Below, piece after piece: positions 5,812 to 23,628 of a stretch of DNA of 26,478 nucleotides. This stretch comes from Gamarada debralockiae (Eukaryota; Ascomycota; Leotiomycetes; Helotiales; Hyphodiscaceae), in contig NXFV01000338.1 in assembly GCA_002803225.1 (NCBI GenBank), positions 1-26,478 of the forward strand, in the 5' to 3' direction. Under the pieces are notes generated by a model. The model saw nothing but the letters and a program-made list of their open reading frames with translations, ran no database searches and had not been told where the DNA came from. The stretch's first letter is position 1, and every line of letters begins with the position of its first letter. Position numbers and translations under genes: made by a program.

Positions 5812-6430
5812 TACTCGAGTTACTCTAGATTACATTAAATCAAATTAGATTAGATTTAGAGTAATGAGTTGATTAGATTAATTTAGATTTAGAGTTACTC
5901 TAGAATAATTTGAGTAACACGTGATTGCAATAGTAATTTTTAATTAAATATCAAAATTAAAATATATTAGTAGTATTTATAGACTTAATAATTAGTAAAT
6001 ATTCTAAAACACTTATATATAAATAAGAAATGTATATAGTGTATTTGTTGGACCGGGTTAGTTTACAGCTCTGAGAGCTACGGTATCTCGTGCTACCAGC
6101 ATGTGATCTAAGCGAGCCCTTAGGATTTTCCCAAGGTCACCAGTTACTCCTTTACCTCTCTTCTATCCACTCTTAATGAGCAATACGTGCTTAACCCTAT
6201 CTATGTTGCCGTGCTTACGTTAATCAGATTACTACTGTGTCAATATTATTTTTAATTATATTTAAATTTAAATTTCTAAGTAATTCCAAGGTCACGTGTA
6301 TCATCACGTGCCTACTCTAATTCATCTAGTGTTGCTCTGGAATAATTAGATTAAATTTAGAGAATTTGATTGGTTACTCTAATTAGATTTTGAGCAATAA
6401 CTAATAATTTAATTTAATCTAATCTAATGC
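5812..6430. repeat. AT-rich decayed inverted-repeat element (MITE-like)
   Basis: Both ends are built from GATTAGATT-type motifs in opposite orientation. ATTAGATTAGATT at 5844-5856 is matched exactly by its reverse complement at 6416-6428. Further in, GAGTAACACGTGAT (5922-5935) is matched by the reverse complement of 6303-6317 with one extra base. The arms are diverged with indels. The core (about 6046-6235) has a more balanced base composition, and its flanks are very AT-rich. This fits an old non-autonomous DNA element or a RIP-decayed repeat. No coding capacity and no certain target duplication were seen. Confidence 0.5.
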
Positions 6431-7208
6431 CACATTGCTGCTACCCAAGTGACAAACGAACTTAGTCCAGCCTCATGCTGCAAGCTGTGCCCACCACCAC
6501 CTCTGAGGCAACTGATCCACATGCTACTCCCTCCATCTCTGGTGCTTGGGTCTCGGACGATGATGAAGATAATGCCTCTGCTCAGCACTCGCCGCTGCCA
6601 CAACCGCTTCCGCCACATGGATGGCTTCCTTGGAAAGTATACTGCTGCCTGGTCTATGCGGAATCGAAATTCGGTGACAGGGCCGATATTTGAAGTGTCG
6701 AGCTTTGCTGCTGCCGAGAGTACTGTTCCAGTTGATGTGTTCACGACTGTTGATTTTATGGAGCACCTTTGGACTCTGGAGAAGCAGTCTGTGGTTGATT
6801 TTTGCGGCTGTGTAGTGAGGAAGAATGCTGTGATTTATGACTTCGATAAAACAAAGGAAGTACGAGGTCCAACTTGCTTGCCTATCATTCTCTCCAATCC
6901 GCACACTACCAGTTCTGCTGTTGAATGTCTGGAGGTGTCCAAGTATATATACACTTCAGCGTTTGCTATGTATAAACTTCACTCACCCACTGGTCGTGAT
7001 TGTCTAACCAGTAAATGTTTCACATCCCACATCCTCATTGCCTTGGCCATTAAAACCTCCCTTGATGTTCGAGCTGTCCCGCTCCAAACACTCTGTGCTA
7101 TACTGCCTTCCCCTAGGACGGATGCCCTGACTAGGGGGACACTCATCTCTCACCTCAGGTTGCAGGGTCAGTTCATAACATGCACGCGTATGAATCGGGC
7201 TTCAATAC
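6431..7208 (+). pseudogene. Unrecognised ORF region, probably decayed coding sequence
   Basis: A plus-strand frame is open from 6449 to 7213 (254 codons) and overlaps a second plus frame (6475-6693) containing an acidic patch DDDEDN. Neither frame reads convincingly throughout. The long frame ends exactly where the LTR-like element starts at 7209. It may be a remnant of a transposon or host gene with a frameshift, or noncoding sequence with chance open frames. No family was recognised and the strand is uncertain. Confidence 0.2.
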
Positions 7209-7471
7209 TGTAGAAGGAACGAAATGCGAGTATAAGCGCGTCCCGATTGCGCTGTGTATCGCACGTGCTCTCAGTGAGGGATAAAACAAAAACAACATAA
7301 AACGAAGGTCAAGTGCTCGAACGCACTGCAAAACGCATCAGAAAACAAGTTGTACGATTGTGCATGTATGTGTAGGTGTCTAAGTACAGGTCCAGCTGCA
7401 AAAGACAAAATATGCCCGGCTGGCACGTGACATCCAGCTAAGCGATCAACGTGACCGATTTCCCCACCACA
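7209..7471. mobile_element. LTR-like element, copy 1 (263 bp), 4-bp target duplication ATAC
   Basis: The element starts TGTAGAAGG and ends CCACCACA, so it has the TG...CA ends of an LTR. It is flanked by ATAC at 7205-7208 and 7472-7475. A second copy at 22577-22838 is about 95% identical by eye (13 differences including one indel) and has its own 4-bp duplication. No internal coding sequence is present. A solo LTR or short non-autonomous LTR-like element is the best reading. The outer bases also match as imperfect inverted repeats (TGT.G..GG), so a MITE cannot be excluded. Confidence 0.75.
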
Positions 7472-7475
7472 ATAC

Positions 7476-8309: not shown

Positions 8310-8311
8310 TA

Positions 8312-8352
8312 ACGTCTATCCCTGCGTGGCGGAAAAACCCTACGTGCCGGAA
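8312..8352 (+). repeat. Left terminal inverted repeat of the NLR-carrying element
   Basis: 41 bp starting ACGTCTATCCCTGCG and ending GTGCCGGAA, preceded by TA. It matches the reverse complement of 13430-13469. Homology stops abruptly after GCCGGAA. Confidence 0.85.
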
Positions 8353-8717
8353 CGACTTCATAGTTTAGGGGTCTTAAATCTCTACTACATAAATATATAA
8401 AGTTACAATTAGTTTGCTATTATTCTTTAGCTATTTCTCTATAAGGGTTCAGTTTAAGTAAGAAAATACTATCGTTGTGGTCATATTGTCAATTGTCCTA
8501 TCAATAGCGTTGAAAGCCCTTTGGCTATTCCCCCCTGCTCTATTATAACTATTGGCCTGTATCTAAATTTCGGGACCGTAGCATGAGGCTCCTATCAAGA
8601 AAGAATATAGCTCCAAAGTTTAAAGAAATAGAGCGGAAGGAAACCTTTTGCCGGATTTATCCGGACAAAGTGAGAGAAGGTATATAATAGAATAACGCCA
8701 CACTTTAAGTCAGGCTT

Positions 8718-8834
8718 GTGGCTGTGCAGAGTCTTGGTAAACGGGCCCCGCAGCCTTGCAATCCACTCAACTCTCTGAGAATACCTACAGAATTCGCCAC
8801 CTTAAAAGGGTGTGGTTGGTGCGGGTCGGCCGCC
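8718..8834 (+). repeat. Inner inverted repeat, left copy
   Basis: GGCTGTGCAGAGTCTTGG, then CCCCGCAGCCTTGCAATCC, then GAATTCGCCACCT and a GGGTGTGG..GTGCGG block all recur in the same order, inverted, at 12881-13022. There are gaps and an extra ~15 bp in the right copy. The two copies lie at similar distances from their outer ends (about 406 and 450 bp), upstream and downstream of the receptor gene. Confidence 0.7.
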
Positions 8835-8854
8835 CTCCCAGCTAGCGGTGGCGA
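8792..8854. repeat. Short inverted-repeat unit inside left inner repeat
   Basis: ATTCGCCACC at 8792 pairs with GGTGGCGA at 8847-8854. It is a 63-bp diverged relative of the clearer 94-bp unit at 12826-12919, with a shared GGGTGTGG core. Confidence 0.4.
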
Positions 8855-9218
8855 CGTCCAGTGCCAGTTCTGTATGAGCTCGATTGGCCCGATTAGAGCC
8901 ACAAAATGCAAAGTTGAGTTGGCAGCTTAGCGTGACTGCGCTGCCTGGTGCGTTAAGAACCGCTGAATCACTTTCTATATCTCCACCTCATCTTCCATTC
9001 CCCTTATGAGTTTTCGCATTCCATCCCATTTCCACAGTATCCGACGCATTTATCGATTGTCAACATTTTCTCAAACAAGTTTCCTCAGTCATTCAATCTC
9101 GCGTTAGGGTCGCTATCAGACTTCCTAGTATTTTGACCTTTCTCGACAAAAGATCATACGACGGCCCGGCTCCGTTTCTGTGCGCTGTTAGCATTAGTAC
9201 AACGCCGTCGTTGCACAA

Positions 9219-12200
9219 ATGGTTTCGAGTGAACAAGGCATAGCCCTTCAGGGGGCCGCGACCGAAGACGATCAGGGGAAAACTTTAACCATGCCTCCAG
9301 AACACTACTCGATCGGCTGGATTTGTGCAATCCCATGCGAATTCACAGCTGCACGCGAAATGCTCGACGCAAGCCATGAGCAGTTGGAAAGCCAGGCCAA
9401 GCACGATGAAAATAACTACATACTAGGGCGCATTGGGAAGCACAATGTGGTCATTGCCTGTCTCCCGGAGTATGGCACCAACCGCGCAGCTATCGCCGCT
9501 AAGTCGATGCAATCCACATTCCCTAATCTGAGATTTGGCTTGATGGTCGGTGTCGGAGGCGGTGTGCCCAGCGCTGAGAATGACATTCGGCTTGGTGATA
9601 TCGTTGTGTCCTTGCCAACTGAACAGGGCGGGGGAGTAATACAGTATGACATAGGTAGGAGGGAAGTAGATGGATTTCATCGTCGGGGTGCTCTAAATAA
9701 ACCTCCAACGCTACTGAGGACAGCCATAAGCAATCTGAGATCAACACTCAAGCTGGCACAAGAGATTTCAGGCTTGGTCAATAAAGCATTTGGAGAGGAC
9801 GAAGACTTTGAGGACGAGTGGACATATCCTAGCAACTTGAAGGATGTCTTATTTAAGGCGACCTACGAACACATCCATAAGAATCCTAATTGTGGGGATT
9901 GTGCTAAAGACACGGCTGGAATAGTGGTTCGAGAGTCACGGCGCGGCACAAATCCTGGAATTCACTACGGCAACATTGGTTCTGGGAACTCAGTTATAAA
10001 AGATGGCCTTGAGCGGGATTTCCTCGCCAAGCGGGATGCTGTTATTTGCTTCGAGATGGAAGCTGCTGGTTTGATGGATGACTTTCCATGTCTAGTCATC
10101 CGGGGCATCTGTGATTATGCCGACTCCCATAAGAACAAAAAATGGCAGCCATATGCTGCCGCTGTGGCTGCTGCGTACGCCAAGAGACTCCTGTCTGTGA
10201 TATCTCCTCAGGCGGTTAACAAACTAGCTCCTATCGAGTGTAAGTAGACCTTTCATTTGAAAGGGACAATCTACTTTTAAGCTTTTGCTCTTATCTTTCT
10301 GTATTGGCGTCTGAGTAGTGGGGATGGGCTTTTGTTTTGATGCTAGAGACATAGGCGGATGAGAAATGTTATTAGCGGTAAGAAGCCGAAGAAAATTGCA
10401 AATAAAACTTTAGGCCTTTAGTTAATTTTCCTGCGATATTGGATTGCAACAGCAGAAGGCGAAGTGTAGTATTATGATGCTGACTTCTTAATGCACTGAA
10501 TAAGTCCTTACCGCTGTGGTATTCCCTATCAGAACGAACTCTAAACAATGACTACCTTGAGTTACTAATAAGTTATAGTGCTAGAAGGAATTCAAAAAGG
10601 AGTCTCGGACATTATAAGAAAGGCTGACGACATTATCCATCATCAACATGGTCAAGAGAAGGAGAAAATCCTGAATTGGCTCACGCCAACCAACTATACT
10701 CTGCAACAGAACGACTATATCAGGAGGCAACAACCAGGAACTGGCCAATGGCTTCTGGACTCAGAAGAGTACCAGGCGTGGCTCAAGACCAGCAAGCAAA
10801 CGTTATTCTGTCCAGGCATTCCCGGAGCAGGGAAGACGATTATTACATCGATTGTGGTTCGCGATCTCAATAATAGATTTCACAATGATACCACTGTTGG
10901 AATCGCTTATATCTATTGCAACTTCAAACGGAAGCATGAACAGACGCTTGAAGACTTGCTCCTGAATCTGCTAAAACAACTTGCCCAAAGCCAGTCCACC
11001 CTACCAAATAGCGTAAAAAGCCTTTACGAGGACCACCAACAGAAACAGACACAGCCATTGTTTGACGAAATCTGCAAGGCTCTCCAGTCCGTGGCGGCAG
11101 TGTGTTCGAGTGTCTTCATCGTTGTTGACGCACTTGATGAATGCCAGGTATCCGATGGCTGTCGAAGGAGATTTCTAACAGAGATCTTTGATCTCCAGGG
11201 AAAGCATGGTGCAAACGTCTTTGCAACTTCGCGATTCATCCCAGAAATCACGAAGACGTTCGCTGGAAGCAATTCTATAGAGATACGTGCAAATAAGGAC
11301 GATGTGCACCGATATGTAGAAGACAACATAAGACAACTACTATCATTTGTCCAGAAAAACAAAGAGTTGCAAGAGGAGATTAAGACTGGAATCTCAGGTG
11401 TTGTTGATGGCATGTACGTTACCACTGATCTTTGAGAGAACTGTTCTTACTAACCTTCTGGGAGGTTTCTCTTAGCTCAAATTTATCTCAGCTCACTTGA
11501 TGACAAGCCCACACCAAGAGCTATCAGAGAAGCACTAGGACAATTCCGGAGACAAATCCCAGGATCAAGCGAGGACAAAAAGGTTGCTGTCCTAGATCTG
11601 GCATATGAACAAGCAATGGAGAGAATCAACGGGCAAAAACCAGGTTTAAAGAAGCTTGCTAAGCAGGTTCTGTCGTGGATTACATGTTCAAAACGGCCCC
11701 TTACCCAAACGGAGCTCCAGCACGCCCTTGCAGTGGAAGTTGGCAAGCCTGAGCTTGGTGAAGATAACCTTCCACAAGTCGAAGACATGGTTTCTATGTG
11801 TTGTGGATTAGTCACAGTCGATGAACAGAGCAATATCATTCGGTTGGTCCACTATACTACTCAGGAATACTTCGACCGGACTCTGGGAAAATGGTTTCCA
11901 AATGCAAAGACTGATGTCACTGCAGTCTGTGTTGCTTACCTCTCATTTAGTGTCTTTGAGAGCGGGTTCCGTCACACAGACAACGATTTTGAGGAGCGGC
12001 TCAAGTTGCATCCTCTCTATGACTACGCTGCACACAACTGGGGACATCATGCCCTCGCAGCTTCAATGGAGGTGGAACAGTCGAAATTGGAACAATCGAA
12101 ATTGAAACAGTTGGTTCTGAATCTTCTTGAGAGTAAACACAAGATCTTTGGCTGCAGCCAGGCGATGATGGTTTCCAGAGACTACTCTGGATATAGTGAT

Positions 12201-12602
12201 AGAGTGCCAAAGCAAATGACAGGATTGCACTTAGCAGCATACTTTGGACTTAAAGAAACGACAAGCTTACTCGATAGTGGACGTGACCTAAACTCTGAGG
12301 ATTCTTATGGCCGGACACCGCTGTCATATGCTGCGGGGAATGGGCACGAGGCGGTCGTGAAGCTGCTGCTCGAGAAAGACGCTGAGCTCGAGACTAAGGA
12401 TGATAATTCTGGTCGGACGCCGCTGTCATATGCTGCAGGGAATGGGCACGAGGCGGTCGTGAAGCTGCTGCTCAACAAAGACGCCGAGCTCGAGACTAAG
12501 GATAATTCTGGTCAGACGCCGCTGTCATATGCTACACAGAATGGGCACAAGGCGGTCGTGAAGCTGCTGCTTAACAAAGACGCTGAGCTGGAGAAATCCT
12601 AA
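9219..12602 (+). CDS. NLR-type receptor: PNP_UDP nucleosidase-like - NACHT - ankyrin repeats
   Basis: Three exons, 9219..10239, 10579..11413 and 11465..12602, give 997 residues with no frame break. Residues about 28-330 are a purine/uridine phosphorylase-like domain: [14 protein letters not shown], the glycine-rich [18 protein letters not shown] (278-284) and GICDYAD (296-302), where family members bind or cleave nucleosides. The NACHT/NTPase part has a Walker A GIPGAGKT (420-427), a Walker [11 protein letters not shown] (about 519-528) and an ATSRF sensor-like segment, followed by [13 protein letters not shown] after the second intron. Residues 868-997 are one diverged and three very similar ankyrin repeats. 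The second intron (51 nt) has a TACTAAC branch site. Known fungal NLRs of this build are thought to act in non-self recognition and programmed cell death, with the N-terminal domain as effector; that role is inferred. The gene sits alone inside the TIR element. Confidence 0.93.
10240..10578 (+). other. Unusually long first intron of the NLR gene
   Basis: Donor GTAAGT, a TACTAAT-like branch sequence near 10563, and acceptor TTATAG. At 339 nt it is six to eight times longer than every other intron inferred here. Unspliced RNA meets a TAG two codons into the intron (10245-10247). AATAAA at about 10402 could serve as a polyadenylation signal. No extra exon was recognised in it. Confidence 0.75.
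12300..12599 (+). repeat. Near-identical ankyrin coding repeats (3 units)
   Basis: Units are 12300-12404, 12405-12503 and 12504-12599, at 35, 33 and 32 codons. Each encodes G-R/Q-TPLSYA..NGH.AVVKLLL.KDAELE. The nucleotide match between adjacent units is high enough to suggest recent duplication or gene conversion. The third unit ends abruptly in KS-stop, where the others continue ETKD. Confidence 0.9.
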
Positions 12603-12825
12603 TAATATTTTATTTTAATAACTTTGATAAAGAGAGTCCTGGGGAGCTGATGTTTATATACTATGGAAATATTGCCACTGGGTGTATCTAGCATGTTCTA
12701 AAAACTTCTATCGAGAAAATTTATTAATAATAGATATTAAGTAATTCACTTAATGATACTGGTCTAAAAAGATTATAGAGACTGCTCTATAGCACTTTTG
12801 CTTTATAAAACTCTTGATTTATAGT

Positions 12826-12919
12826 ATTCGCCACCTTCGCCACTCTGTCATACTTCCAAGAGCTTTTACAAAGTAGCATGGCTGATCCGCACTGGCCACA
12901 CCCTTGCGAGGTGGCGAAT
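12826..12919. repeat. 94-bp unit with 11-bp perfect inverted ends (MITE-like)
   Basis: It begins ATTCGCCACCT (12826-12836) and ends AGGTGGCGAAT (12909-12919), an exact inverted match. The ends continue with weaker pairing (TCGC against GCGA). It is too small to code. It may be an inserted miniature element or a structured sub-terminal motif of the larger element. Confidence 0.6.
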
Positions 12920-13022
12920 TCTCTAGAGTTGAGTTGGTAACCAGAGGCATGGCCAAGGTTGAGTTGGATTGTAAGGCTGCGGGGCTGAGGTCGGTAAGTT
13001 TGCCAAGATTCTGTACAGCCAT
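12881..13022 (-). repeat. Inner inverted repeat, right copy
   Basis: Reverse complement of the blocks listed for 8718-8834, in the same order, including ATGGCTGTACAGAATCTTGG and GAATTCGCCACCTCGC. It overlaps the 94-bp unit. Confidence 0.7.
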
Positions 13023-13266
13023 CCGCGATCACGTGTTGCTATCAGTATGTGCGGGGCTGGTGATCACTTCGGTTGGAGGTACTGATCAGCGTGGCGACCG
13101 TGCATGAATTTGCGTGCCACAGCAGCCACAAGGCTAATGATGATTTCTCCTATAGTAGTGAGAGCCTTAGAGCTCAGATAAGAGCCTTGATAAGTATTAG
13201 GGATAGTATAAGCTTGGTGGTAGAGTCGTGGTAGAGGAAGTCTACTATACTATAAAAGGGGACTCT

Positions 13267-13344
13267 TTACAAATCAAGCGTGAGGGCGATAATACGAATG
13301 TGATTTTCTAGTAGGAAGGGTTTAGGGTGTCTAGGAGTAGCCAT
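13267..13344 (-). pseudogene. 25-codon frame, possible transposase N-terminal remnant
   Basis: Starting 86 bp inside the right TIR and reading inward, an ATG opens MATPRHPKPFLLENHIRIIA and stops after 25 codons. Position and orientation are where a Tc1/mariner transposase would begin, and the short basic start followed by a helix-like stretch would suit the start of a DNA-binding domain. No catalytic residues exist and the frame is tiny, so this is speculative. Confidence 0.25.
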
Positions 13345-13429
13345 AGAATACAACTTAAAAGAAAATATAGGAGATATTGAGGTGTGTATAGATTTTATGA
13401 TGCTTGAAGTCAAAGTACCTATTATTTTT

Positions 13430-13469
13430 TTCCGGCATGTAGGGTTTTCCGCTACACAGGGATAGACGT
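13430..13469 (-). repeat. Right terminal inverted repeat of the NLR-carrying element
   Basis: 40 bp ending CAGGGATAGACGT, followed by TA. It differs from the left repeat by three transitions and one missing A in the A-run. Two of the transitions are at CG dinucleotides. Confidence 0.85.
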
Positions 13470-13471
13470 TA

Positions 13472-20126: not shown

Positions 20127-22505
20127 ATGGCTTCTACCACAGATTTCGCGGTGTTACTGGCCGCTATCCTATCTCTGTGCTGGGCACAGAGCCTGTGCAC
20201 ACAACCACAATGCGTTGTAGGATAGATCAAAACCAAAGACGTGGGTTTCTACTGAGTGTTGATAGATTGACGCATTCTATTCGGCGGATTCCAACGCCAA
20301 CAGAATATTATGCAACGAGTTCCAAGTCGACTCGTTTTGCTCCAACACTTTGATGGTCGGCAACTACTTGATATACCTCCCCACGGCCTGCCACATCGAA
20401 GTCAATGGATTTAGTGTAGGATGTACTGTGAGCAACTGTTGTCAAGATTACCAGGGTGAGGATATGGTAGTTATACTGAGAGTAATTATCTAACAGTGTC
20501 ACAAGCTGGCGTTAACTGGATAGCTACACGATGCCTGTCAGGCTATCTCGCCGCCATCACCGCGACCGCAGAGGCGAGGCTCAAACCACGACAATATGAG
20601 TGCGCAATCACGACTCCCACCGTGGTCACTACTACACCACAATCGCCTCCAGCACCTGGAAGCTCAACCCCACCAAGTATGTCGGATTTCCTCAGCCACG
20701 GTATATCTGTTGTGTCGTCTTTTAGTGCTCAGATTATTCTTCCGAGACAAATAACGATTAATGATGGATCTTTGACAACGACTCTACTTTGCAATCCAGC
20801 GCATTCTTATCCTGGATGCCTGAGTTGTGTAAGCGGTACAGCGTGGGGGACCACGCCTGGTTGCACAGTATCAGCAGCAGCTTCAAGTACCACTCCGAGC
20901 ACTACTCCGCTAACAACCTCTACTCCAGTGGCAACTTCTACTCCAGTAGCAACCTCTACTCCAGTAGCAACTTCTACTCCAGTGGCAACTTCTACTCCAG
21001 TGGTAACTTCTACTCCAGTGGCAACTTCTACTCCAGTGGCAACTTCTACTCCAGTGGCAACTTCTACTCCACCAACCCTTACCACTATCAGCGACACATC
21101 AAGTATAAGCTCTAGTCCAAGCATAAGCTCAAGCTCAAGCTCAAGCACGCCTAGCCAAGTTGTCATCACAACCTCTCAGTCCAAAACATATAGTTTCACG
21201 AGCGTGATTGTGCCTTTAGTGTCAACACTGAGTACCACTACGGAAGCAGCCGGATCGGAGAGTATCTCAACCCCGTCCTCAGCACACATTACCTTCCCTA
21301 CAACCCCATTCACCGGTCAAGCGCTGCTCGTGGGAACATGCACGATTCCAATATACACAGCGCTTGTAATGAGTGGAGGCGGAATTTTAGAAGCGCCCAT
21401 CATCGGTTGCGCCGACGATCGACCAGACTGTTGCCCGTCTCTGAGCACATCTTCCAGCGTTACTTCAACAACACCGCCCACAACTTCGACAAGTACAGTC
21501 ATTGTCCCAGTCTATGAGAGCACCGCTGTGGTCGCCGCGCTTTCGGCCGACCCGATTACGGCTTGCCCTTCTGATTACATCGATCTGGGCTCTGTATGCT
21601 GTCCTGTGTATGTCGCGAACTGAGTAGATTGTCACATTTGCATCCGTAGACTGACACAACACAGCGGCTTTACCCTCTATCCCCAAGCCATAATTGGCCA
21701 AACCCCCTGTTACACTGTTCTCCCCACCGATCTCAACACCAACGCCGCCAGTGCCGCAATCTCCTCTATATCCGCACAAATCGCCGCAACGGCCTCTCCC
21801 GGCTCCACACCCACAGTTTCCATCCAGATAATTACTGATCAGGTCTTCGCTCTTTCCCTGCCTCACACGCCGCACAAATCCCTTGTCAGCACAAAGATCG
21901 GCGCCGGCGTTGGCGCCGGAGCGGGTGGATTGCTCCTTCTGTTATTGTTGGTCTGGGTGTACTCCCTGCGGAAGAAACTTAGAGGAGAAAGGAAGCAGAA
22001 TAAATTGAGCGCGGCTATTGCAAGTGCAGCAGCAGGTAGTGGGTCGACACCAATTGCGAGTGAGAGTTTAAACTCGGGAAGTATGAGCCAGCAGCCGAGT
22101 TTGCCCTCTACGGGACCGACGCCACCAGCTGGTCCAAGTCCGCCTGAAATGCAGAACAGGAACCACTCACTTTTGGCACCGCATGTGCCATCAAGGGCCC
22201 AGCAGCCATATCAACAGACCTATCAACAGTCGCAGCCTGGCCAGCCATGGCAGCAAACGCCAGGCTCTGCTCCCTACCTAGCACTAGGGCAACCCGGCCC
22301 ACCGCACATGACAGCGATATCCGAAGCCTACGACGAGGGTTTCCTTAACGGCTATCGTGAGATGTCCGGTGTACAGACTGACGTCTACGAGACGAATGCG
22401 AACTTGCCGCGGCCGGGAATCTCACGTATGCCAGACGGGAGGATATACACAGAGCCGGTAGAGATGGGACGGAGTGATACGCCACAAGTTATTCAGAATC
22501 TTTAG
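20127..22505 (+). CDS. Secreted-pathway, STP-rich single-pass surface protein
   Basis: Four exons, 20127..20216, 20266..20455, 20497..21607 and 21665..22505, give 743 residues. Introns are 49, 41 and 57 nt; the 41-nt one is short but restores frame. A signal peptide is clear (MASTTDFAVLLAAILSLCWA, cut near 21). A Cys-rich ectodomain follows (IDAFYSADSNANRILCNEFQ, CTVSNCCQDYQG). Next comes a Ser/Thr/Pro stalk with eight TS-TPVA hexapeptides (234-281), and further Cys pairs (DRPDCCPSL, SVCCPVGFTLYPQ, TPCYT). The membrane helix at about 541-560 (GAGVGAGAGGLLLLLLLVWV) is followed by YSLRKKLRGERK. The 180-residue tail is Pro/Gln-rich. The layout suits a wall-anchored or sensor protein; function is unknown. 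The exon 1-2 part is missed by frame-only calling. Confidence 0.85.
20916..21071 (+). repeat. 18-bp coding tandem repeat (8 units plus partial)
   Basis: ACTTCTACTCCAGTGGCA and one- or two-base variants repeat eight times (20916-21059), followed by a 12-bp partial unit. Each unit encodes TSTPVA (one TSTPVV). The units stay in frame, extending the Ser/Thr/Pro stalk. Confidence 0.95.
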
Positions 22506-22576
22506 AGTTTGCAATGCGGTAGTGGGGTATTTCTATGAACCTCTGAAACTCCGATAGCAGAAGTGTTAGTTGCTAC

Positions 22577-22838
22577 TGTAGAAGGGGCGAAATGCGAGTA
22601 GGAGCGCGTCCCGATTGCGCTGTGTATCGCACGTGCTCTCAGTGAGGGATAAAACAAAAACAACATAAAACGAAGGTCAAGTGCTCGAACGCACTGCAAA
22701 ATACATCAGAAAACAAGTTGTACGATTGTGATGTATGTGTAGGTGTCTAGGTACAGGTCCAGCTGCAGAAGGCAAAATATGCCCAGGTGGCACGTGACAT
22801 CCAGCTAAGCGATCATCGTGACCGATTTCCCCACCACA
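22577..22838. mobile_element. LTR-like element, copy 2 (262 bp), 4-bp target duplication CTAC
   Basis: Same orientation as copy 1 (7209-7471), starting TGTAGAAGG and ending CCACCACA, flanked by CTAC at 22573-22576 and 22839-22842. It lies 71 bp downstream of the surface-protein stop codon and may affect its 3' end. It is about 95% identical to copy 1 by eye. Confidence 0.75.
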
Positions 22839-22842
22839 CTAC

Positions 22843-23628
22843 ACTCGCTTTTTTACCCCAGTTTACTCTCACACGCTAATCGTCGCTCCATATAACACTT
22901 ACTGTTTTACCCCTGTTTTGTCTCTATCCCCTGGATGCTCACAACGCTAGCTAAATCAGTGCATAAGCTTATGTAATCTTCTTAAAGAAGTTAGTCCAAA
23001 CAACAACGCGCTCTGATTTGTTAGCGAGTTTCTGTTCAATATCTCGTTTCTATTATTTATAGTTATTCAGTGTAGCCAGCAGTACAAACAGTACAGTGTG
23101 CACAGCCGTATTTTCCAGTCACGACTTGAAGCTCGGACTCTTGGACCGAAAGTCACATGACTAGAGACCTTGATATAACACGGCTAGGGCTACGCTAGAC
23201 TAGCGAACGCACAGAGTATAGTATAAGGGAAACCGCTTGTAGATTAGAACCTTTCTTTCTTCTTCTCTCTTTAACTTCGAATAAATGTAATTGAAACGTT
23301 CTTCCCTTGTCTTATAGGCCTTTGTGATAGCTCTATGTGGCGGGTTACAACCGAAGTAGGACTTAGTGGCCTAAGGTCGCCTGCATTTGTTGCTATGGCG
23401 ACTAGCCAGTTTATTCACAACAACTGTCGCCAGGCTTTCTTCTCTTCTCTTTAGGGTATTCTCTTTGTACAGTACAGTAGCTTTAGTTTGAAACATGACT
23501 CTTGCTAGCCTGTCACACTCTACGCAAGAGAGTCTCACAAGGGGACGCTGTTAGAAGTGCTATATTACTACAGGAATTCTAATCTAAATAGAAAGGAAGA
23601 GAAAGAGAGATTCTAATCTATAATATTT
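22843..23628. repeat. Probable LTR-retrotransposon-derived sequence, unresolved
   Basis: There is no gene. The stretch 23150-23360 has the look of an LTR: a pyrimidine-rich tract (CTTTCTTTCTTCTTCTCTC), AATAAA, then TCTTATAGGCC and GGCGGGTTACA. Matching ends and a target duplication were not found. Short runs recur around it (GAATTCTAATCTA and TTCTAATCTATAA). Confidence 0.35.

Follow-up and report, generated by a model that had tools for sequence, protein, structure and literature searches.

Tc1/mariner elements are generally 1.3–2.4 kb in length and contain one transposase open reading frame (ORF; PMC4188875). Starships, the giant tyrosine-recombinase elements of Pezizomycotina, reach about 700 kb (PMC12134995), and their cargo includes HET, NACHT and ankyrin genes (PMC9594970). 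Two elements with terminal inverted repeats (TIRs) are also to be mentioned: ToxhAT, a 14-kb hAT-associated transposon with eight genes that carries ToxA (PMC6737239), and a hAT element of Pseudocercospora fijiensis that captured histone H3 and is present in hundreds of copies, all inactivated by repeat-induced point mutation except the original (PMC6710886). Analysed here is a contig of Gamarada debralockiae (NXFV01000338.1, 26,478 nucleotides, termed the window), in which positions 8310–13471 form a 5,162-bp TIR-bounded element with a single gene for a NOD-like receptor (NLR). We put at roughly 0.86 the probability that this element belongs, as a non-autonomous member, to a DDE_1 transposon family of pogo/Fot type (fungal Fot1-like elements; the basis tested is DDE_1, TIR and TA), that it holds an intact NLR gene and that the transposase of other members is likely to move it in one piece to TA sites.

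An earlier note on the window, made from its sequence, had called the element Tc1/mariner-type, which stands in the sense of the DDE_1 branch: the TA target site, the TIRs and the PF03184 DDE_1 domain in family members are the features in common. Unlike typical Tc1/mariner elements, the complete copies described here measure 2.4–11.1 kb, have long left (L) and right (R) ends and contain mostly host-type genes instead of an intact transposase. The likeness to Starships lies in the HET, NACHT and ankyrin cargo; Starships use a DUF3435 captain, whereas the window element is 5.16 kb long with TIRs, and Pfam found no such captain among its ORFs of at least 150 aa. ToxhAT is likewise a fungal type II TIR element with an ecologically important gene plus others, but it does not form a family of many copies that differ in their recognition-type cargo. 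The P. fijiensis element resembles the window's family as a fungal TIR element with captured host DNA, but the latter has many different genes, several of them intact, for which no close parent copy was found. hAT elements make an 8-bp target duplication; the outer flanks inspected in the family share only TA, and the empty sites show one dinucleotide.

The cause of the wide differences in HET/NLR repertoire among fungi is an open question. Giant Starships have been discussed as one route and NLR gene clusters as another (PMC12258605), NLRs were stated to be carriable by transposons (PMC9815663), and 42 HET genes were reported near repeats in Pyrenochaeta lycopersici (PMC6034849). No description of a TIR family with HET/NLR cargo was found in the titles, abstract openings and passages of the open-access papers searched. 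With recognition genes as its main load, the small TIR family is a new form of gene-carrying transposon, by which receptors are likely carried round the genome. If true, such transposition would help to explain why fungi differ in their HET/NLR sets, and a compact many-copy TIR family would be a further route, directly testable by typing empty sites, ends and cargo.

The window element and its receptor gene

The outermost two bases of the element are TA on each side (8310–8311 and 13470–13471). The left TIR (8310–8352, plus strand) pairs with the right TIR (13430–13471, minus strand) in a single gapped alignment of 43 bp with 90.7% identity; in the inverted-repeat search of the window this was seen as two pairs of arms, 8310–8339 with 13442–13471 (90%) and 8334–8363 with 13419–13448 (80%). 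Conservation within the family extends well past the TIRs, about 380 bp inward on the left (L end, 8310–8688, plus strand, profile match E 1.9e-118) and about 400 bp on the right (R end, 13074–13471, plus strand, E 1.4e-126).

Between these ends three plus-strand exons, placed from the sequence, encode one protein of 997 aa with no inner stop and with GT..AG introns. Exon 1 (9219–10239) holds a PNP_UDP_1 domain (E 5.6e-08), exon 2 (10579–11413) an NPHP3_N/NACHT domain (E 3.5e-39), and exon 3 (11465–12602) a winged helix, GPIID_WHD (E 4.3e-14), followed by ankyrin repeats (E 1.2e-29) and the stop codon. Thus Pfam searches with the ORFs placed in a single protein, in the order PNP_UDP_1, NPHP3_N/NACHT, GPIID_WHD and ankyrin, the fungal NLR layout of an N-terminal effector domain, NACHT and C-terminal repeats. 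By prediction, a cue of non-self or altered self would be sensed by the ankyrin repeats, with oligomerisation through the NACHT domain and the PNP domain as effector. No ORF of at least 150 aa other than those of the NLR is present in the element (ORF list and Pfam), so there is no intact transposase and the window element can only be a non-autonomous member. The earlier note had proposed a TIR-bounded element with TA ends, a complete PNP-NACHT-ankyrin receptor as its sole gene and, for lack of an intact transposase, a need for mobilisation in trans; all but the last of these claims are confirmed, and the last is supported, also by transposase relics in the family, described below. What it missed are the long reach of the conserved ends and an inner inverted repeat.

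The left arm of this inner repeat lies on the plus strand at 8745–8831 (stretches 8745–8765, 95%, and 8785–8831, 81%) and the right arm on the minus strand at 12880–12985. A nested element between the arms was considered and not taken as a second transposon, because the right arm overlaps a right-end extension (from 12904) that is common to the window element and a sister element, L024. The 3′ flank of the cargo gene (12606–12851, plus strand) is 84% identical to a stretch of contig C276 of the assembly (G000:C276, locus L048), where it likewise stands after ankyrin-repeat DNA and before degenerate R-end pieces.

As judged from its sequence, the gene is in itself nothing unusual among fungal NLRs, with a predicted receptor function. 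The best 120 of 6852 database matches are 34–60% identical to the protein and mostly have the same architecture, and the domain order is that of many Pezizomycotina proteins. The window protein is shorter than nearly all of these 120 matches, has about three clear ankyrin repeats, and its gene is enclosed by TIRs. Recent horizontal transfer of the NLR, also considered, is unsupported at these identities; in contrast, a neighbouring mannosyltransferase has ten full-length matches at 82–91%, the best named one in Hyphodiscus hymeniophilus (84%), in line with a genome from the Helotiales. Retro-copied cargo was rejected for the window gene, since its introns are retained.

Ends and cargo of the transposon family

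The genome assembly comprises 54.3 Mb in 1112 contigs (contigs of G000 are cited as Cnnn, element loci as Lnnn and the window element as W). A 26-base TIR pattern with at most 3 mismatches gave 95 genomic matches and its reversed control 0; a looser pattern gave 189 matches vs 3 in the control, and the first 100 of the 189 places were examined. With the left outer 909 bases of the window element 41 matches were listed (40 of 91 candidates scored), including the element itself, the others being 76–91% identical, and with the right outer 869 bases 43, again including itself and with a few that are pieces of one place (40 of 113 candidates scored). Most of these matches are confined to the first 360–380 or the last 400 bases or so of the window element. 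Twenty-one complete copies, the window's included, were selected by the presence of both ends on one contig, regardless of content; a 13.4-kb pair on C512 and a pair on C37, which encodes ankyrin proteins in the part read, were left out. The complete copies span 2,443–11,121 bp, and according to the L and R end profiles 18 of them have exactly one end of each kind, the remaining three (L014, L017 and L036a) having extra nested end pieces. TA was present at both outer ends in all 18 copies checked (the A was part of the search pattern, the T was not). On C248 (G000:C248:7214–7870) the looser pattern places a forward and a reverse end about 0.66 kb apart, which may be a short copy that lacks cargo; a HET gene lies 0.4 kb farther on.

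It could be argued that two unrelated transposon ends of different age flank the NLR gene by chance, which the earlier note had named as an outcome that would refute its proposal, and the internal inverted repeats do show a structurally complex region. We regard this as highly improbable, since the two ends of the window element are the L and R ends of one element, in the order and orientation found in the 18 copies, and since both have their closest relatives, among 19 complete copies (L014 and L017 left out of this comparison), in a single element, L024, whose ends match with 91% identity over 445 bp and 85% over 578 bp. The cargo of L024 is an unrelated HET gene which points in the direction opposite to that of the window NLR, and the two elements have no interior DNA in common. 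The same holds for 18 of the 19 elements, in which the partner with the most similar ends has no interior DNA in common with the element. Such natural pairs with similar ends and different cargo provide a system for studying how a whole gene enters a cut-and-paste transposon. L025 and a locus with one end seen, L030, have both the left end and the HET-NACHT cargo in common, and their homology ends no more than 3 bases from the TIR; therefore, cargo also appears, from the alignment, to spread along with its element.

The earlier note had also asked for further copies with other cargo, and these were found among the 20 sister copies. A HET or NACHT gene or relic is present in 14 of the 21 complete copies (12 of 18 if L014, L017 and L036a are left out); 12 of these calls are supported by Pfam, and the HET calls in L009 and L014 were made with a custom profile. 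PNP-NACHT-ankyrin cargo occurs in the window element and L012, HET-NACHT-WD40 cargo in L018 and, decayed, in L025, HET with tetratricopeptide repeats (TPR) in L023 and, as a relic, in L009, and a HET protein in L013, L022, L024, L027, L028 and L036a; HET relics lie in L021 and in the nested L014. Three loci with one end seen add HET-NACHT (L030), HET-ankyrin (L031) and HET (L040) cargo. Other complete copies carry DUF6579 (L015), Peptidase_C70 (L016), a protein kinase (L019), a sub-threshold EamA-like match (L026) or ORFs with no Pfam match (L017 and L020). The ORFs sent to Pfam were chosen by length, and the absence of HET/NACHT was judged with custom profiles over six frames. The 11.1-kb copy on C82 (G000:C82:174911–186031; L010 501–6090 plus L011 1–5531) has several ORFs, of which three were sent to Pfam with no match and one is short-chain-dehydrogenase-like by eye, and so a single pair of ends may hold several genes. 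Relative to the ends the cargo occurs in both directions.

HET domains of different elements are mostly 24–47% identical among the pairs reported by BLASTP, because of which the same gene class likely entered the family repeatedly; a single HET lineage (L018, L023, L030 and L024) is 57–80% identical. HET-side DNA is 66–80% related in L009, L018, L023, L025 and L030, yet the C-terminal repeats that follow it differ: L023 has TPR (as does L009, judged by DNA similarity), whereas L018 and L025 have WD40, which suggests repeat-domain swapping within element-borne receptors. For the HET protein of L028 a single relative at E ≤ 1e-60 was found among 7996 candidates scored, from Leptodontidium (76% identical over 66%), and its distribution looks patchy on this comparison.

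The first look at the genome gave 770 HET and 358 NACHT candidates, of which 150 per family were scored and listed. Within 4 kb of the 95 ends, 14 listed HET/NACHT hits lie inward, spread over 14 contigs, vs 2 outward, with 1.57 expected inward (Poisson P 1.5e-9 for the inward excess; P 7e-4 for inward vs outward). When 16 further ends were added and inward stretches were cut at the partner end, the counts became 14 vs 3 (P 6.5e-9 and 1.5e-3), the hit on C248 moving outside and one on C302 moving inside. An insertion hot spot beside HET/NLR genes was considered as well and is unsupported, since the number of hits on the outward side (2 or 3 vs 1.85–2.24 expected) is close to background. The same numbers bear on the possibility that the cargo is biased passively, by random pick-up of genes in a genome that is, with so many candidates, rich in HET/NLR genes, other duplicates having been lost or mutated. 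The other genes carried by the remaining third of the complete copies would fit such a history; however, if all 770 and 358 candidates are placed at random as genes, 2.07 of the 21 copies are expected to hold one, and the 14 observed were reached in 0 of 200,000 simulations. With the density outside the same ends so close to expectation, we give passive bias about one chance in three. That the lineage is specialised as a vehicle for non-self-recognition genes, in which the L and R ends stay the same, the HET/NLR cassettes are interchangeable and movement occurs in trans, so that a mobile receptor pool drives HET/NLR presence/absence variation, is in our judgement about evenly balanced between true and false. 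Bacterial mobile elements circulate defence systems, as proposed here for a mobile pool of fungal immune receptors. Possible reasons for the prevalence of HET/NLR cargo are a rare-allele advantage, passive retention in a genome rich in HET genes, or some gain for the element; we suppose that HET/NLR cargo would be kept because it is favoured when rare or helps the element persist.

As to how the cargo was acquired, whole genes would be picked up as genomic DNA, because the window gene keeps its introns. Capture would probably occur when a host gene lies between two copies and the L end of one is paired with the R end of the other, which would fit a whole gene with introns as well as both orientations. 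One may also consider Pack-type transduplication, by which a resident gene is duplicated and the copy placed between the TIRs, with precedents in Pack-MULEs and in the capture of histone H3 by the P. fijiensis hAT cited above. Part of the window ankyrin DNA is matched elsewhere in the genome at 79–81%, which speaks for such a duplicate; however, the closest paralogue of the window NACHT region is 73% identical, several cargo genes are whole and not fragments, and no close parent of the cargo was found in the assembly. Ten 240-base cargo pieces from ten elements gave a best full-length genome match of 75% and best partial matches of 85% over 97–98 bp and 92% over 39 bp, in a search that skips very common words. 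Transduplication is therefore improbable as the source of the window gene.

Movement and the source of the transposase

For 18 elements the two flanks were joined (80 bases, TA and 80 bases) and compared with the genome, with L036, whose flanks hold end pieces of other copies, and the nested L014 and L017 left out. Paralogous empty sites were found for four of the 18 pairs, three of them from HET carriers: L009 with a HET relic (C612, 92%; C180, 88%), L013 with HET (C568, 79%, TC in place of TA) and L028 with HET (C260, 85%). The fourth is the Peptidase_C70 carrier L016 (C214, 88%; C3, 87%), for which further copies of the same repeat were listed. All six aligned sites of these four elements have a single dinucleotide at the junction, TA in five and TC in one. 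L013 (501–6555, G000:C105) sits inside a NACHT-type reading frame, and this frame is open across its joined flanks as well as in the paralogue on C568, which gives an NPHP3_N match. The empty single-TA sites that the earlier note had called for were thus found for sister elements, and none was found in the genome for the window copy. Because the flanks of the latter match only themselves in the genome, we infer its mobility, as well as present activity, from the family.

DDE_1 (PF03184) matches number 79 in the genome. Five of them lie 1158–1702 bp from a family left TIR and in the same orientation (C849, C133, C724, C345 and C87), and on C769 a match lies 755–991 bp from the left end of L021 (501–4792; G000:C769:185244–189535), a complete copy with a rearranged DDE_1 fragment and a HET relic. 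On C87 there is also a NACHT match 3.9 kb inward from the left end; no right end was found up to the end of the contig, so that this match may lie inside or beyond the element. Since DDE_1 relics lie behind the same left ends, the cargo carriers are tied to a DDE_1 transposon and mobilisation in trans is supported. The relative with the same TIR and a DDE transposase that the earlier note had asked for therefore exists in six left-end contigs as far as the domain is concerned, and an autonomous one was not among them. The simplest account is of a family in which whole host-type genes have taken the place of the transposase and movement depends on the transposase of siblings, an enzyme that would recognise the TIRs and perhaps also the L and R ends of about 380 and 400 bp.

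Several observations weigh against a non-autonomous family that moves receptor genes in trans. Every DDE_1 domain tied to the family left ends is either incomplete or broken by stops, 14 of the 18 joined-flank pairs, the window element's among them, gave no empty site in the genome, and no near-identical second copy of the window element was seen among the scored genome matches. Seven of the 21 complete copies have no HET/NACHT gene, so that the cargo is biased, not exclusive. As cargo kind and direction vary, the step of capture itself is not visible. The inside/outside comparison is limited to the 150 candidates scored for each of the two families, and its inward hit on C248 falls outside if the reverse end found there with the looser pattern is the other end of its element.

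Some of these observations would also be expected if the window element were a dead relic that moved in the past, with no functional transposase left and the receptor now an ordinary fixed gene. The broken or partial transposase domains and the lack of a recent twin are consistent with such a relic, which we consider possible at somewhat less than even odds. On the other side stand the intact gene and TIRs of the window element and four near-complete DDE_1 matches without stops elsewhere in the genome (C628, C324, C340 and C595), on contigs that do not occur among the 95 strict TIR matches (of the looser pattern, the first 100 of 189 places were listed). At G000:C340:76–4019, on the minus strand, ankyrin DNA up to 81% like that of the window, HET and a stop-free DDE_1 occur within 4 kb.

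Other repeats in the window

A dispersed repeat of about 270 bp is present in two direct copies (7206–7475 and 22574–22842; 94–96% identity), the first of which lies 835 bp before the element. The region 5817–6424 is A/T-rich with several degenerate direct and inverted repeats and is perhaps a decayed repeat. A 34-nt inverted repeat (23237–23270 and 23590–23623, 79% identity, spacing 319 nt) is possibly a small miniature inverted-repeat transposable element of another family. Finally, 18-bp repeats at 20866–21107 fall within a 375-aa ORF (20496–21623) that is rich in threonine, serine and proline.

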